Notes under the pieces: model-generated | The model's input: the letters and a program-made list of their open reading frames with translations, nothing else | What the model was told of the DNA's origin: nothing | Database searches by the model: none | Shown: in pieces, positions 29,950 through 53,892 of the stretch | Layout of the letters: each line of letters begins with the position of its first letter | Position numbering within the stretch: the first letter of the stretch is position 1 | NCBI RefSeq assembly: GCF_026810505.1 | Contig: NZ_CP101750.1 | Span: 6,319,501 to 6,383,500 of the forward strand | Reading direction: 5' to 3' | DNA length: 64,000 nucleotides | Source of the DNA: Streptomyces sp. Je 1-369 | Lineage (GTDB): Bacteria > Actinomycetota > Actinomycetes > Streptomycetales > Streptomycetaceae | Translations under genes and position numbers: made by a program

Positions 29950-31389
29950 GTGACCACCGAGCTGCGCCGTCTGCGCAACTACATCAACGGAGAATTCCGG
30001 GACGCGGCCGACGGACGGACCACCGAGGTCATCAACCCGGCGACCGGCGAGGCCTACGCGACCGCCCCGCTGTCCGCCCAGGCCGACGTGGACGCCGCCA
30101 TGAAGGCCGCCGCCGACGCGTTCCCCGCGTGGCGCGACCTGACCCCCGCCGAGCGGCAGCGGGCCCTGCTCAAGATCGCCGACGCGTTCGAGGAGCGGGC
30201 CGAGGAACTCATCGCCGCCGAGGTCGAGAACACGGGCAAGCCGACCGGACTCACGCGGTCCGAGGAGATCCCGCCCATGGTCGACCAGATCCGCTTCTTC
30301 GCGGGTGCGGCCCGGATGCTCGAAGGGCGCGCCGCGGGCGAGTACATGGAGGGTCTGACCTCCATCATCCGCCGCGAGCCGATCGGCGTCTGCGCGCAGG
30401 TCGCGCCGTGGAACTACCCGATGATGATGGCCGTCTGGAAGTTCGCCCCGGCGCTCGCGGCCGGCAACACGGTCGTGCTCAAGCCGTCCGACACCACCCC
30501 CGCGTCGACCGTCCTGATGGCGGAGATCATCGGCTCCATCGTGCCGCCCGGCGTCTTCAACGTCGTCACGGGCGACCGCGACACCGGCCGCTCCATGGTC
30601 GAGCACCCCACCCCGGCGATGGCCTCCATCACCGGCTCGGTGCGCGCGGGCATGCAGGTCGCCGAGTCCGCTGCCAAGGACCTCAAGCGCGTCCACCTGG
30701 AGCTCGGCGGCAAGGCGCCGGTCGTGGTCTTCGAGGACACCGACATCGCCAAGGCCGTCGAGGACATCTCCATGGCGGGCTTCTTCAACGCGGGCCAGGA
30801 CTGTACGGCCGCCACGCGCGTGCTCGTCCACGAGTCCATCCACGACGACTTCGTGACCGCGCTCGCCAAGGCGGCCGCCGACACGAAGACCGGCCAGCCG
30901 GACGACGAGGACGTGCTCTACGGCCCGCTGAACAACGCCAACCAGCTGAAGCAGGTCTCCGGCTTCATCGAGCGCCTCCCGGCGCACGCGAAGGTCGAGG
31001 CGGGCGGCGGGCGGGTCGGCGAGAAGGGCTACTTCTACGCCCCGACCGTCGTCTCCGGCCTCAAGCAGGACGACGAGATCATCCAGAACGAGGTCTTCGG
31101 CCCGGTCATCACCGTCCAGTCCTTCACGGACGAGGCGCAGGCCGTCGAGTACGCGAACGGCGTCGAGTACGCCCTCGCCTCCTCCGTCTGGACGAAGGAC
31201 CACGCGCGCGCGATGCGCATGTCCAAGGTCCTCGACTTCGGCTGCGTCTGGATCAACACGCACATCCCGCTGGTCGCGGAGATGCCGCACGGCGGCTTCA
31301 AGAAGTCCGGCTACGGCAAGGACCTCTCGGCGTACGGCTTCGACGACTACACGCGCATCAAGCACGTGATGACGTCCATCGAGGGCTAG
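29950..31389 (+). CDS. Gamma-aminobutyraldehyde-type dehydrogenase
   Basis: NAD(P)-dependent aldehyde dehydrogenase of 479 residues. The nucleotide-binding segment APWNYPMMMAVWKFAPALAA, the general-base Glu in HLELGGKAPVVVF and the catalytic Cys in GQDCTAATR (about residue 287) are all intact. Closest in feel to gamma-aminobutyraldehyde/betaine-aldehyde dehydrogenases (PatD/PuuC group), which finish putrescine conversion to GABA. GTG 29950 follows GGAGGG by about 9 nt; the frame upstream is open but lies in the divergent promoter region. A strong terminator follows. A paralogue is at 43742. Confidence 0.88.
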   Translation: MTTELRRLRNYINGEFRDAADGRTTEVINPATGEAYATAPLSAQADVDAAMKAAADAFPAWRDLTPAERQRALLKIADAFEERAEELIAAEVENTGKPTGLTRSEEIPPMVDQIRFFAGAARMLEGRAAGEYMEGLTSIIRREPIGVCAQVAPWNYPMMMAVWKFAPALAAGNTVVLKPSDTTPASTVLMAEIIGSIVPPGVFNVVTGDRDTGRSMVEHPTPAMASITGSVRAGMQVAESAAKDLKRVHLELGGKAPVVVFEDTDIAKAVEDISMAGFFNAGQDCTAATRVLVHESIHDDFVTALAKAAADTKTGQPDDEDVLYGPLNNANQLKQVSGFIERLPAHAKVEAGGGRVGEKGYFYAPTVVSGLKQDDEIIQNEVFGPVITVQSFTDEAQAVEYANGVEYALASSVWTKDHARAMRMSKVLDFGCVWINTHIPLVAEMPHGGFKKSGYGKDLSAYGFDDYTRIKHVMTSIEG

Positions 31390-31427: not shown

Positions 31428-31492
31428 GCCGCCCCCGCGTACCGTTGCGTACGCGGGGGCGGCTCCGCGGTGTGCTTCCTTCTTTTTTCTTC
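31428..31492 (+). terminator. Rho-independent terminator after the aldehyde dehydrogenase
   Basis: Perfect 15-bp arms 31428-31442 and 31449-31463 around a 6-nt loop, followed closely by a T/C-rich run (TTCCTTCTTTTTTCTTCTC, 31474-31492). It is one of the few classical terminators in the window and isolates the next gene from the dehydrogenase transcript. Confidence 0.93.
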
Positions 31493-31561: not shown

Positions 31562-34180
31562 ATGACCACGACAGCGACGACCGACGACCTGCTGGGGCTC
31601 CTGCTCCGCCGCCGACAGAGTGTGTACGTCCCTGAGGGCATCGGGCGGTCCGCCGTGACCGATGCCGGCGTCGTCGTCCTCGAAGCCGAACTCGCCGACC
31701 GCGGGCACCTGCTGACCGCCCCGCTGCGCCGCGCGCTGACCGCGTTGTCCGCCGACGACCTCGCGACGACCGGGCGCGAGCTGCTCGCCGACGTCGACGC
31801 CCTGATGGGCTCCGACCGGCACCACGCCCCGCTGTTCGCGCGGTTCCCCGCCGAGACCGCCACCCAGCCCGCGTACGAGCGCTACACCACCGTCGTCGCC
31901 GAGTACCTCGCCGCGCAGCCGCACCAGCCCTGCATGAACTGCGCGGGCACCAAGGCGAGCGTGCGTGCGCTCGACCCGTGCGCCCACCTCCTGTGCGACG
32001 ACTGCCTCGGCGCGAAGATCGTGCCCTGGAACTGCTGCGACCAGTGCTGCGAGTGGTACGAATGCCCGATCTGCGACAAGCGCTACGAGACCGACGGCCC
32101 CCTCGACCCCTGGCTCGACACCGGCGCCCACTGGGACGGTGACGGCGGCCCCGTCCTGCGCGCCCTGTCCCTCGGCGCGCCCGGCGACGCCGCCGCCGAA
32201 CTCGCCGCGCTGCTCGCCCGCCGCACGCCCCTGAACCGGCAGGACCACGACGACCTCGTCCTGCTCCTCGGCCACGTGGACCCGGCCGCCGCCGCGGAGT
32301 GGCTCCCGTCGGCCATCCCACTGCGCGAGAGCAAGGCGCTCGCCCTGGCGCCGCTCCTCGACCTGCCCGACGTGCGCCCGCTGGCCGGGCGGTACGCGGA
32401 CACGGCCACCGACGTGCTGCGCATCCTCGTCGTACGCTCCGGGGGCGACCCCGACCTGCTCGAACTCCCGCGCCTGCGCGGCCTGCCCCGTCCCGTGCGC
32501 CGCGAACTCCTCGCCCTGCTCGACGGGTTCGACTTCCGGCGCCTCGCCGAGGACATGGCACGCCACCCGCGCGCGTGGAAGCACGTCGGCGAAATCCTCC
32601 ACCCCTTTGAGCACGCACACCGCCACGCGCGCGTGGCCCTCGCTTTCGCCGCCCTGCGCGGCACCCGCGTCGGCGACGGCGCGCTCGGCGAGGTCCTGCT
32701 CGCCGAGGCCGCCCGGCACGACGATGTCCGCCTCGCGGACGACCGGCTGCGCGTCGTCACCTGGCAGGCGCGCGTCGAGGAGGCGCTCGGCCGCTGGGAC
32801 GTCGAGACCGCGGTGCGGCTGCTGCGCGAGCGGCCGGGCGAACTCCTGCGCCGCCTCGACCTGCTCCTGGCCCGCTCGGGCTCGGCGACGCTCCCTGACA
32901 CCGTCGGCGAGGCGCTCGCCGACGCCCTGCCGCACTCCGGACCCGGGCCGCTGCTCGGTGCGTACGGCCGCATGAAGATCCGTGCCGTGCCGGGGCACCG
33001 CCGCGTCTTCTTCCCGCGCGGCCGCGTCACCAAGGCGTACGCCATCGAGGACCACCGGCCGCCGCTGCCCGCCCGTGTGGCGGGCCGCGCCGGTGAGCTG
33101 ATCGAGGCCGAGGCGGTGCGACGGCTCACCGAACGGGACGGCGAGCGGTACGACGTGGCGGTCCTTGACGCCGCGCTCGCCGACCTGCCCCTGCCCTTCG
33201 CCGAGCGGGCGTCGGCCGCCTCGCTGGTCGCCGTGCCGCGCGGCAGCTCCCTGCCCATGCCCGCGGACAGCGAGACCGTGCGGCTCTTCCTGCACTGGAC
33301 GCAGCCCAAGGGCGTACGCGTCGACCTCGACCTCTCCGTCGCGCTCTACGACGACCTGTGGCGCTTCATCGGCCTCTGCGACTACACGCGGCTGGAGTAC
33401 GCGGGCGGCGCCGCCCGGCACTCCGGGGACCTGACCTCCGCGCCCGCGCCGCAGGGTGCCACCGAGTACCTGGACCTCGACCTGCCCCGGCTCGCCAACA
33501 GCGGGGTGCGGTTCGTGGTGCCCGCGGTGTTCTCGTACAACGACATCCCCTTCGACGAACTCCCGGACGCCTTCACGGGGTTCATGGCGGTCCAGGGCAA
33601 GGAGCGGGAACGGGAGCGGGCCGTCTACGACCCGCGCGCGGTCCGGCAGCGCTTCGACCTCGCGGGCGACGCGAAGCTGACCGTGCCCATGATCGTCGAC
33701 CTCCGGACGCGTCACGCCTGGTGGACCGACGTCACCCTCGCCACGACTGGCACGCACCACGCCGTGTGGGGCTACCGCAAGCAGATCGGCCGCATGGGCA
33801 ACGACCTGCTCGACACCTTCCAGCCGTGCGGCCGGGCCACGCTGTGGGATCTGGCCTGCTGGACGGCGGCGGCCCGCACGGACGGCGACGTGTACGTGCG
33901 CGGCCGCGGCCACGTCCTGTGGGGCTACCGCCGCGCGGAGGGCGAGCCGCGCGCCGACTTCGCGCTGCGCATACGGGACGCCTGGGAGCCGGACGCACTG
34001 CGTGCGGAGGCGGAGCTGGCGGGCCGCGCGGCCCTGCTGGCGCTGCTGCACGGCGACCTGCCGGGCGCGCGGGACACGGCGTCCGGCACGGCGTACCGCC
34101 TCTACCCGGGGCCGGTCGACGAGGCGGCGGTGGAGCGGGTCACGGCGGGGGACTTGGCGGGGTGGCTGGAGCCCGCGTGA
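31562..34180 (+). CDS. RING-finger and TerD-like domain protein (MXAN_6230/SCO0854-type)
   Basis: Large protein of 872 residues. Residues 124-171 form a C3HC4 RING-type zinc motif: C124-x2-C127, C140-x-H142, C145-x2-C148, C168-x2-C171, with extra Cys at 158, 159, 162 and 163. Residues 190-500 are helical and Leu/Ala/Arg-rich. Residues 573-680 look like a TerD domain (VDLDLSVALYDD, HSGDLT, GATEYLDLDL), followed by another conserved region ending at 872. I recall a database family named after MXAN_6230 and SCO0854 with a RING domain. RING fingers act in ubiquitin-type transfer or as protein-binding zinc modules; TerD proteins bind calcium and belong to stress pathways. Function here is unknown. 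No adjacent ubiquitin-like or E2 gene is seen. ATG follows GGGGGTGG; a strong terminator precedes it. Confidence 0.82.
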   Translation: MTTTATTDDLLGLLLRRRQSVYVPEGIGRSAVTDAGVVVLEAELADRGHLLTAPLRRALTALSADDLATTGRELLADVDALMGSDRHHAPLFARFPAETATQPAYERYTTVVAEYLAAQPHQPCMNCAGTKASVRALDPCAHLLCDDCLGAKIVPWNCCDQCCEWYECPICDKRYETDGPLDPWLDTGAHWDGDGGPVLRALSLGAPGDAAAELAALLARRTPLNRQDHDDLVLLLGHVDPAAAAEWLPSAIPLRESKALALAPLLDLPDVRPLAGRYADTATDVLRILVVRSGGDPDLLELPRLRGLPRPVRRELLALLDGFDFRRLAEDMARHPRAWKHVGEILHPFEHAHRHARVALAFAALRGTRVGDGALGEVLLAEAARHDDVRLADDRLRVVTWQARVEEALGRWDVETAVRLLRERPGELLRRLDLLLARSGSATLPDTVGEALADALPHSGPGPLLGAYGRMKIRAVPGHRRVFFPRGRVTKAYAIEDHRPPLPARVAGRAGELIEAEAVRRLTERDGERYDVAVLDAALADLPLPFAERASAASLVAVPRGSSLPMPADSETVRLFLHWTQPKGVRVDLDLSVALYDDLWRFIGLCDYTRLEYAGGAARHSGDLTSAPAPQGATEYLDLDLPRLANSGVRFVVPAVFSYNDIPFDELPDAFTGFMAVQGKERERERAVYDPRAVRQRFDLAGDAKLTVPMIVDLRTRHAWWTDVTLATTGTHHAVWGYRKQIGRMGNDLLDTFQPCGRATLWDLACWTAAARTDGDVYVRGRGHVLWGYRRAEGEPRADFALRIRDAWEPDALRAEAELAGRAALLALLHGDLPGARDTASGTAYRLYPGPVDEAAVERVTAGDLAGWLEPA

Positions 34181-34336
34181 GGTGGGCGGGGCGTCGTCCG
34201 GAGGGAGCGGCTGCCGGAAGGGTGCGCGCGCCGGGATGATCGACAAGGTGTCCGCTCCTCGGGGTGGGGCTCGACGCTGCGTCCATTGCCGCGCCGCCGA
34301 GCGGGGGCGCATGCTGCCGGGGTGCGAGCGAACCCC

Positions 34337-35533
34337 ATGGCCTCCATGCCCTCCTCCGTGTCCCGCCGTTCCCTGCTCCGCGTCCTGGGCGGCGGTGCGG
34401 CCGTCGGTACGGCCGTCGGCGCGCTCGCCGGATGCGGGGTGCCGGCCGCGTACATCGGGCCGGGGGAGCGGGCGGCGAGCGACCGCTCCCGCCGGGACAG
34501 GACGCTGACCTTCGCCAACTGGCCGCTGTACATCGACACCGACGACCACGACAAGACGGAGCGCCCCTCGCTGGACGCCTTCGAGAAGCGGACCGGCATC
34601 GACGTCCGCTACACGGAGGAGATCAACGACAACGACGAGTTCTTCGGCAAGATCAGCCCGTCCCTGATGAACCACCAGGAGACCGGCCGCGACCTCATCG
34701 TCATCAGCGACTGGATGTGCGCACGCTTCGTACGCCTCGGCTGGGTCCAGGAGATGGACCGCGCCCGTCAGCCCAACGTGACCACATACCTGGACCCGCT
34801 CCTGCGTTCACCGCACTTCGACCCGGGCCGGAAGTACACCGTCCCCTGGCAGTCGGGCATCACCGGCATCGCGTACAACAAGCGCAAGGTCGGCCGCGAG
34901 ATCAAGCAGGTCTCCGACCTGTGGGCGGACGACCTCAAGGGCCGCGTGACCCTCCTCTCCGGCCTCGACGAGGCGTTCGCGCTGCTCCTCCAGGGCGACG
35001 GCGTCGACATCAGGAAGTGGTCGGCGGACGACTTCCACCGGATGTGCGACAAGGTCGAGAAGATGGTGGACAGCCATCACATCCGCCGCTTCACCGGCAA
35101 CGACTACATCAAGGACCTCTCCAGCGGCGACGTCCTGGCCTGCCAGGCCTACAGCGGCGACGTCATCCAGCTCCAGGCGGACGACCCGGACATCGAGTTC
35201 GTCGTCCCCGAGGAGGGCGCCGAGCTGTGGGCGGAGTCCCTGATGGTCCCCAACCTGGCCCGCCACAAGCAGAACGCCGAGCGGCTCATCGACCACTACT
35301 ACGACCCCGAGGTCGCGGCGGAGCTCGCCGCCTGGGTCAACTACGTCTGCCCCGTCCCGGCCGCCCGCGACGTCCTCGCCTCCTCCAAGGACAAGGAACT
35401 CGCCGCCCTCGCCGAGGACCCGCTGATCTTCCCCGACGACGCGATGCGCGAGCGGCTCGTCATCGCGCGGGACATCACGTCGAAGGAGCGCACGGAGTTC
35501 GCGAAGCGGTGGAACGCGTTGGCGGGGTTGTAG
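34337..35533 (+). CDS. Orphan spermidine/putrescine-binding protein (PotD paralogue)
   Basis: Polyamine-type solute receptor of about 398 residues. It has a Tat-like signal (SRRSLLRVLGGG) and a lipobox LAGC, so it should be a lipoprotein. The body matches the PotD-like protein at 45314 segment by segment (TEEINDNDEFFGK, TGRDLI, IRRFTGNDYIKDLSSGD, AELWAESLMVPN). No permease or ATPase is adjacent, so it either shares the pot transporter of 46599-49500 or serves as a second receptor with different affinity. ATG 34337 is chosen for the signal peptide; the frame opens at 34286 and no convincing ribosome site is present. Confidence 0.88.
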   Translation: MASMPSSVSRRSLLRVLGGGAAVGTAVGALAGCGVPAAYIGPGERAASDRSRRDRTLTFANWPLYIDTDDHDKTERPSLDAFEKRTGIDVRYTEEINDNDEFFGKISPSLMNHQETGRDLIVISDWMCARFVRLGWVQEMDRARQPNVTTYLDPLLRSPHFDPGRKYTVPWQSGITGIAYNKRKVGREIKQVSDLWADDLKGRVTLLSGLDEAFALLLQGDGVDIRKWSADDFHRMCDKVEKMVDSHHIRRFTGNDYIKDLSSGDVLACQAYSGDVIQLQADDPDIEFVVPEEGAELWAESLMVPNLARHKQNAERLIDHYYDPEVAAELAAWVNYVCPVPAARDVLASSKDKELAALAEDPLIFPDDAMRERLVIARDITSKERTEFAKRWNALAGL

Positions 35534-45313: not shown

Positions 45314-46564
45314 ATGGAGCAGTACGAGCCCCACCGCCTCGGCCCGGCCCAACTGGCCGCCACGCACCGCAGCTACCGGAACGGCAGGGCCGCCCTGACC
45401 CGCCGCAGCATGCTGCGCGCCACCACGGGCGGCGCGCTCGCGATCGGCGGCCTCGGGGCGCTCAGCGCCTGCGGCATCCCCGCCGCGGGCAAGAGCCAGG
45501 GCGAGGTCTCCTCCGACGACCACTCGGCAGGGGAGAAGCGCATCAGCTTCTCCAACTGGACCGAGTACATGGACGTCGACGAGAAGGACGAGAACCGGCG
45601 GCCCACCCTGGAGGCGTTCACGAAACGCACCGGGATCACGGTCAAGTACACCGAGGACATCAACGACAACGTCGAGTTCTTCGGCAAGGTCAAACCGCAG
45701 CTCGCCGCGGGCCAGGAGACCGGCCGCGACCTCATCTGCGTCACCGACTGGCTGGCCGCCCGGCTCATCCGCTTCGGGTGGGTCCAGAAGCTGGACCCGG
45801 CCAACCTGCCGCACGCGTACACGAACCTCTCCGCGCAGTTCCGTGACCCGGACTGGGACCCGGGAAGGTCGTACTCCTATCCCTGGACCGGCATCTCCAC
45901 CGTCATCGCGTACAACAAGAAGGCGACCGGCGGAAAAGAGATCACTTCGGTGTCGCAGCTGCTCGACGACCCGAAGCTGAAGGGGCGCGTCGGGTTCCTC
46001 TCCGAGATGCGCGACACCGTCGGCATGACGCTCATCGACATGGGCAAGGACCCCGCGGACTTCACCGACGACGACTTCGACGCGGCCATCGCCCGCCTCC
46101 AGAAGGCCGTCGACCGCAAGCAGATCCGGCGCTTCACCGGCAACGACTACACCTCCGACCTCGCCAAGGGCGACATCGCGGCCTGCCTCGGCTGGGCCGG
46201 CGACATCGTGCAGCTCCAGGCCGACAGCCCCGACGTCGGCTTCCACATCCCCGACCAGGGCTACATCACGTCCACGGACAATCTGCTGGTCCCGAACAAG
46301 GCGCGGCACAAGAAGAACGCCGAACGGCTCATCGACTACTACTACGAGCCCGAGCCCGCGGCCCGCCTCGCCGCGTACATCAACTACGTCTGCCCGGTCG
46401 ACGGGGTACGGGACGCGCTCGCGAAGCTCGACGAGGACGCCGCGTCGAATCCGCTGATCATCCCCGACAAGGAGATGAAGGAGAAGTCCCGGGCGTTCCG
46501 GTCGCTCACGCCGAAGGAAGAGACGGCGTACGAAGAGAAGTTCGCACGCCTCACCGGGGCCTAG
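45314..46564 (+). CDS. potD: Spermidine/putrescine ABC transporter substrate-binding lipoprotein
   Basis: Receptor of 416 residues. It has a twin-arginine-type signal (RRSMLRATTGG), lipobox SAC near residue 51, and a PotD fold: SFSNWTEYMDVDEK, YTEDINDNVEFFGKV, TGRDLICVTDWLAARL, IRRFTGNDYTSDLAKGD, INYVCPVDGVRDAL. The aromatic and acidic residues expected for diamine binding are in these segments. ATG 45314 is chosen over the frame opening at 45272 because the twin-arginine signal begins after it. It precedes potA by 34 nt. Confidence 0.93.
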   Translation: MEQYEPHRLGPAQLAATHRSYRNGRAALTRRSMLRATTGGALAIGGLGALSACGIPAAGKSQGEVSSDDHSAGEKRISFSNWTEYMDVDEKDENRRPTLEAFTKRTGITVKYTEDINDNVEFFGKVKPQLAAGQETGRDLICVTDWLAARLIRFGWVQKLDPANLPHAYTNLSAQFRDPDWDPGRSYSYPWTGISTVIAYNKKATGGKEITSVSQLLDDPKLKGRVGFLSEMRDTVGMTLIDMGKDPADFTDDDFDAAIARLQKAVDRKQIRRFTGNDYTSDLAKGDIAACLGWAGDIVQLQADSPDVGFHIPDQGYITSTDNLLVPNKARHKKNAERLIDYYYEPEPAARLAAYINYVCPVDGVRDALAKLDEDAASNPLIIPDKEMKEKSRAFRSLTPKEETAYEEKFARLTGA

Positions 46565-53476: not shown

Positions 53477-53892
53477 GCGCTACAGCCTGGCACGGCGTAA
53501 GACCCGGACATGCCGAAGGGCCGACGCAAGGGGGGGGAGTGCGCCGGCCCTTCGGTGGCCGACCGGCCCGGACTGTCCGAGGGGACCTGCTCACGCGGGT
53601 CCGTCGGGGGAGTCTCCGAAGCGGTCTTCCGGATCGGGGGTCCGCGCGCCCCGGGGGGTGTGGGGCGAGCGGCCGTCCGATCGGTGAGGAGTTCCGGAGC
53701 TGGAGGCTCCGGGTGTGTGCGCGAAGGCACTACCAGGACGGGGCTGGGGAGGCTCCGCCGTGGTGTCGCCCACAGTCCCCTGTGGGCGGGGTGTTTCTCT
53801 CATCTGCAGAAACCGTACGGCAGCGGATGGCGGGCCGACAGACGGAACAGCAACCCGTCATGGGGCCCGCACACCTTCTTCACATGCCGCGC
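53477..53892. other. 416-bp intergenic region between the PAP2 gene and gabT
   Basis: No coding sequence is supported. Two hairpins are present: 53694-53712 (7-bp CCGGAGC/GCTCCGG, 5-nt loop) and 53767-53788 (9-bp CGCCCACAG/CTGTGGGCG, 4-nt loop, with TGTTTCTCTC after it on the + strand). The second lies about 105 nt past the gabT stop and may terminate its minus-strand message, although the T-rich side faces the other way. The PAP2 promoter should lie at the lower end. Confidence 0.5.

Follow-up and report, generated by a model that had tools for sequence, protein, structure and literature searches.

The open frame at 31562-34180 on the forward strand of the 64,000-nucleotide stretch analyzed here from Streptomyces sp. 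Je 1-369 (contig NZ_CP101750.1; this whole stretch is hereafter called the window) was verified from the sequence to encode a protein of 872 amino acids (aa). The reading that we favor, and to which we give about an even chance, is that of a multi-domain RNA-handling factor, in which a Ro60-like ring would act on RNA, a TerD domain would take the place of the vWA domain, and a RING finger would serve as a docking module without ubiquitin. Relatives encoded by large phages often adjoin tRNA genes, a setting that points to quality control of RNA and away from tagging with ubiquitin. A first-pass annotation of the gene had described two domains, RING and TerD, and had named both correctly, but had overlooked the large helical middle part, which is the largest part of the protein and whose predicted shape resembles that of Ro60, an RNA-binding ring.

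By its sequence, the protein is a member of a family that already bears a name, NF041916 (MXAN_6230/SCO0854 family RING domain-containing protein), whose curated threshold it passes (936 bits, cut-off 600) with residues 13-865 aligned to profile positions 4-841/842, i.e., as a full-length member; going by the family name, SCO0854 is the homologue in Streptomyces coelicolor A3(2). The model description of this family states no function; a literature search on MXAN_6230 and SCO0854 found no paper in the library searched, and one on the Prok-RING family PF14447 returned papers that, judged by title, were on other subjects. In its Pfam entry, PF14447 is reportedly linked, after Burroughs, Iyer and Aravind 2011, to a helical domain at the N-terminus, to repeats of the ROT/TROVE type, and to a TerD domain at the C-terminus. 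Since we had this description in mind when the likeness to Ro60 was reached by structure, we treat the combination of RING, Ro60-like part, and TerD as an architecture that has probably been described before.

The putative Ro60/TROVE-like helical ring spans residues about 209-541 (32186-33184, +), and its likeness to Ro60, or Rsr (TROVE, PF05731), in which HEAT-like helical repeats make up the ring, is one of predicted helical-ring fold, taken from the structural model only. TROVE was not recovered by sequence, as PF05731 was without match in the whole genome and hhalign (0.1%) gave no profile-profile match; Foldseek with the helical domain alone likewise found no match at E ≤ 0.001. Where Ro60 carries a C-terminal vWA domain with MIDAS, the Je 1-369 protein has TerD, and the general Pfam scan of the protein, which included no dedicated vWA test, matched none of the vWA families. 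No Y RNA was among the Rfam matches for the window and for 8 of the 65 viral loci described below, a search that a divergent Y RNA would escape. The sole Rfam match in the window was Scr5676, a Streptomyces sRNA at 53676-53805 (-; 123 bits), which is unrelated to Y RNA.

The TerD domain (residues about 560-745; 33239-33796, +) was assigned by fold and motifs. Both of its TerD-type Ca2+ motifs, DLDLS (residues 588-592; 33323-33337, +) and HSGD (residues 620-623; 33419-33430, +), lie where the first-pass annotation had placed them and are conserved: among 61 sequences, D590, G622, and D623 are invariant, while D588 and L591 as well as H620 and S621 are each kept in at least 90%. DLDLS presumably takes part in Ca2+ binding. 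The TerD similarity expected from the sequence was not found by profile, as PF02342 gave nothing at E ≤ 1 on the Je 1-369 protein (gathering score unmet), but it is borne out by the fold and by the DLDxS and HSGD motifs in common with TerD proteins of solved structure (3ibz, 2qz7, and 2kxt). Unlike known TerD, the domain is fused here to the end of a large protein.

Copies above the family cut-off were found in 19 of the 147 genomes of the same order and in 3 of the 296 genomes of a phylum sample, all three within the genus Streptomyces and one being the genome of the window itself; other phyla are represented here by plasmids, phages, and IMG/VR contigs only. Matching plasmid records number 29 and include Deinococcus, Variovorax, Vibrio, and Niallia, and 65 IMG/VR contigs (predicted viruses) of up to 500 kb carry copies that are mostly about 690-750 aa long. 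Furthermore, the Rhodococcus phage Weasels2, for which R. erythropolis RIA 643 is recorded as host, encodes one copy (gp266). Both the helical part and TerD are retained in the phage relatives. The PHROG family phrog_33734 (unknown function) is matched by the Je 1-369 protein (7.6e-40) and by the seven viral-contig relatives given; for comparison, PF14447 scored above its cut-off in 3 of 10 viral-contig relatives in an overlapping set.

ARAGORN identified tRNA genes in 42 of the 65 viral loci. In the Weasels2 stretch, nine tRNAs surround the copy, one of them at a distance of 319 bp, and RtcB is encoded 3.2 kb downstream. Among the 15 contigs longer than 100 kb, 10 of the stretches around the family gene contained tRNAs (106 in total, 35 of which are in contig L060), compared to none of 15 control stretches, which were taken one per contig at about equal size and half a contig away. 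When set against whole-contig totals (37 contigs, 33 with tRNAs), 196 tRNAs were observed where 69.7 were expected, a ratio that is approximate, because tRNAs in the stretches were called by ARAGORN and contig totals by Infernal (in L060, the stretch has 35 and the whole contig 33). Without L060, the numbers are 161 observed and 64.2 expected; per contig, the count was above expectation in 22 cases and at or below it in 11 (sign test, p 0.04). Within the 30 of 52 dereplicated loci that contain a tRNA, the family gene was also closer to one than most other open reading frames (ORFs; mean rank 0.37, p 0.003), in a test that is favored by its being central and long.

Other RNA genes were observed in this setting as well. 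Genes for tmRNA occur in 5 of the 65 viral loci (L067, L084, L091, L093, and L121), one SmpB was seen among the scanned neighbors of phage copies, and ARAGORN called tRNA-Pyl in two phage loci (L065:371-444 and L093:6034-6108), which are perhaps suppressor tRNAs. RtcB was found in 3 of 16 phage records that had been picked by hand before tRNAs were counted. Additional RNA-repair and NAD genes near the copies are mostly single cases, for which we claim no enrichment. A recurrent phage operon partner was sought and rejected, as no listed Pfam family appeared in more than four members (sets of 124 and 125; first 25 of 86 and 25 of 66 families, with a single, very long L078 ORF and neighbors shorter than 100 aa excluded). 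Two publications touch on the same themes: a survey of jumbo phages reports that phages of this kind encode ROT/TROVE proteins and, as a separate observation, TerD (PMC7824862), and another describes RNA repair operons under RtcR control that react to damaged tRNAs, some of which encode bacterial Ro60 (Rsr; PMC7790460).

In the mechanism that we propose, the Ro60/TROVE-like helical-repeat ring would bind RNA that is structured or damaged, with tRNA or pieces of it as possible substrates, and TerD, in place of vWA, would bind Ca2+ and/or a signal and gate the ring or recruit partners. The N-terminal RING would be a zinc-held docking or structural module rather than a ubiquitin ligase, with which many relatives dispense and which one bacterial branch may have gained or reinforced; the extra four-Cys cassette seen in the Streptomyces clade of the window would perhaps be a third zinc or redox site. 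A more specific version, which we advance tentatively and hold to be possible, is that of a second Ro60-like lineage, unrecognized by sequence and with TerD for vWA, which large phages, encoding it next to their tRNA genes, would use to bind attacked tRNAs and either protect or sort them; a mainly actinobacterial branch would have gained a full RING as a ubiquitin-free zinc docking module, and the window's clade a third Cys site. None of the 18 stretches around RING-bearing Streptomyces copies holds a tRNA, so that the tRNA setting of the phages does not extend to these copies, which in our reading would act as the phage copies do. If the RNA-handling reading is true, a bacterial and phage family without an assigned function could be tested as a machine for RNA quality control, with the phage tRNA-gene setting providing a concrete substrate hypothesis; Ter stress domains, for which we know of no settled molecular role, would be linked to Ro60-type RNA surveillance; and a RING finger would be found working without ubiquitin.

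Carriage by phage contigs near tRNA genes would suit a function in host defense, or in phage counter-defense, against tRNA-cleaving toxins, with RNA binding serving conflict only, and the sporadic spread across the order points the same way. However, PADLOC returned no defense family for six family proteins, and chromosomal copies sit at one fixed site within each of two Streptomyces clades; we regard this explanation as rather unlikely. PADLOC also found no defense family for the VWA neighbor of a Streptomyces halstedii plasmid copy and only weak, short-stretch matches for its AAA neighbor.

That plasmid copy (L054:13966-20391) is adjoined by VWA, AAA, and WGR genes, with an RNA ligase gene further on, and a similar VWA-MoxR pair adjoins the copy of Deinococcus QL22. 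These MoxR/AAA and VWA genes, together with a TerB gene near the copy of Deinococcus KNUC1210, would fit a stress component of the Ter system, in which TerD, with better support than the other large domain, would be the core of the function, and the helical repeats would form a protein-binding scaffold without an RNA role. Against this, a separate TerD gene was found in none of 46 Streptomyces-type family stretches (phmmer, E ≤ 1e-5; three matches were to the family gene itself), phage relatives keep the helical part and not TerD alone, and their genes tend to lie close to tRNA genes. We consider a pure Ter-system role unlikely.

Canonical Ro60 genes, which occur in 79 of the 147 genomes of the order, were sampled at 20 loci (every fourth listed row, 3rd to 79th; L208-L227). 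In 12 of these, a TerD gene of ~415 aa lies within about 9.5 kb and is convergent with Ro60 in all 12 cases, the two being 52 bp apart in L222 (8591-11473), compared to none of the 46 family stretches with such a gene. This is suggestive of a genomic link between Ro60 and TerD in Streptomyces, tempered by the fact that convergent genes share no operon, and it could be explained by the inherited gene order of one lineage.

The C3HC4 RING finger occupies residues 124-171 (31931-32074, +). Re-reading of the protein confirmed that the ligand spacing in the first-pass annotation is exact and that four extra Cys (residues 158, 159, 162, and 163) lie between the ligands. The general RING pattern arose in none of 200,000 shuffles of the protein, none of the eight ligands varies among the 21 family RINGs that were aligned, and a profile of these 21 matched solved eukaryotic RINGs, namely RNF4 (1.2e-8, the best), CBL (5.5e-6), and MEX3C (1e-5). 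While PF14447 (Prok-RING_4) scored only 12.9 bits on the Je 1-369 copy, below its gathering cut-off of 27, it matched relatives from S. halstedii (70.2 bits, 1.4e-19) and viral contig L060 (61.1 bits, 9.5e-17). AlphaFold confidence over the RING stretch is middling, with block means of 56-81.

The RING is an optional part of the family. By our patterns, 32 of 109 dereplicated rows have a full RING, 5 a half RING, and 72 neither (L057 and L058 being scored as neither although some Cys are kept), and therefore the core function of the family would need no RING. Prior to dereplication, 125 of 127 loci could be scored (L047 and L100 are too short), giving 33 full, 5 half, and 87 neither; because that set holds partial copies not reaching the RING (such as L042, L044, L048, L102, and L110) and near-identical contigs, both of which swell the 87, we quote the 109-row counts (125 minus 17, plus the window copy; L162 and L163 duplicate L038 and L035). 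The viral contigs contributed one full RING, that of L060, which may be a plasmid-like element, and three half RINGs, with L100, L102, and L110 too short to judge. In the half RINGs (L056, L059, L061, L080, and L104), ligands C3, H4, C7, and C8 are kept, whereas C1 and C2 are gone, as are C5 and C6 except for C5 in L080. C3, H4, C7, and C8 together form zinc site 2 of the cross-brace. The joint retention of such distant ligands would thus fit, as indirect evidence, the predicted cross-brace and not a sequential pairing. In a quick tree of the region after the RING (109 rows, 514 columns), which has long branches such as those of L057 and L059, the 32 full RINGs fall on one side of a branch with 99% SH-aLRT support.

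Between RING ligands 6 and 7, the four extra Cys form a CC-x2-CC cassette (residues 158-163; 32033-32050, +). It is present in 13 of 13 rows of the window's Streptomyces clade, the distant L164 included (98% SH-aLRT, same tree), and in none of the other full RINGs among the loci scored. The cassette is thus a feature of the window's clade, absent from other full RINGs of NF041916, and is a possible third metal site, to judge from its Cys pattern.

The first-pass annotation had proposed a ubiquitin-like pathway, and a true E3 would recruit an unrecognized E2-like enzyme and conjugate a ubiquitin-like protein to targets picked by the TerD and helical parts. The likeness of the family RING profile to the E3 RINGs RNF4 and CBL, as well as BRE1, the complete conservation of the ligands, and one JAB-domain gene, found in the genome by a search for one JAB family, speak for this proposal. 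However, that gene lies far from the family gene; most copies have neither a full nor a half RING; and Asn precedes C127 in the Je 1-369 copy, at a position occupied by Ile in CBL. Furthermore, genes for E1, E2, or JAB are named neither in the annotated neighborhoods read nor among the Pfam families listed. No E2 (PF00179, PF14461) was found in the 8.8-Mb genome, a weak negative, since control genomes were equally silent in both searches and absence is thus not shown. Beyond the RING itself, little favors the ubiquitin reading, which we hold to be improbable.

The gene lies between an aminobutyraldehyde dehydrogenase gene upstream (29950-31389, +, start approximate; NF010000, 709.5 bits, cut-off 615) and a gene for a PotD/PotF-like polyamine-binding protein downstream (34331-35533, +, start uncertain; best match NCBIfam PotD, E 1.8e-28, 99.4 bits, below the cut-off of 582), neither of which we count as part of the system. 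All 14 stretches read from the window's close subclade, which represent 12 distinct genomes with that of the window included (two are the duplicates named above), have the dehydrogenase upstream, and 13 of them have the PotD-like gene downstream. Of 15 further Streptomyces that carry a closely similar PotD-like gene (72-83% identity), 11 have the dehydrogenase adjoining it with no family gene between; two of the remaining four have other genes between, and two have no dehydrogenase in the stretch read. Because those 11 do without the family gene, the polyamine setting, called unexpected in the first-pass annotation, is incidental and is best explained by the addition of the family gene to a pair of genes that was already there. 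Since L164, of the same clade, and other Streptomyces clades have different neighbors as well, a part in polyamine catabolism, e.g., as a regulator, is hardly credible despite the constant flanks in the subclade. A second PotD-like gene in the window, at about 45392-46558 (+), shares 49% identity with that at 34331.

Nine loci of the second Streptomyces clade have a gene for a DEDDh exonuclease (NF004719) downstream of the family gene and on its strand (e.g., L152:11412-12503), with gaps of -52 to 133 bp by our gene calls. The exonuclease was weighed as a candidate partner, but its gene may be an old neighbor. The strong terminator described in front of the Je 1-369 gene corresponds to a 14-bp perfect GC-rich hairpin at 31429-31462, which is terminator-like on reading the sequence but was not called by a terminator scan. 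Two Streptomyces copies (L044 and L048) are broken across several frames, by mutation or assembly error, and the source genome encodes a paralogue without RING as an open frame of 790 codons (C1:178205-180130). At the two ends of the Je 1-369 protein, an N-terminal helical part (residues 1-123; 31562-31930, +) has AlphaFold helices at 7-18, 31-46, 53-60, 64-82, and 101-118, and the C-terminal tail (residues 746-872; 33797-34177, +) falls below a pLDDT of 50 at residues 783-791 and 805-860.
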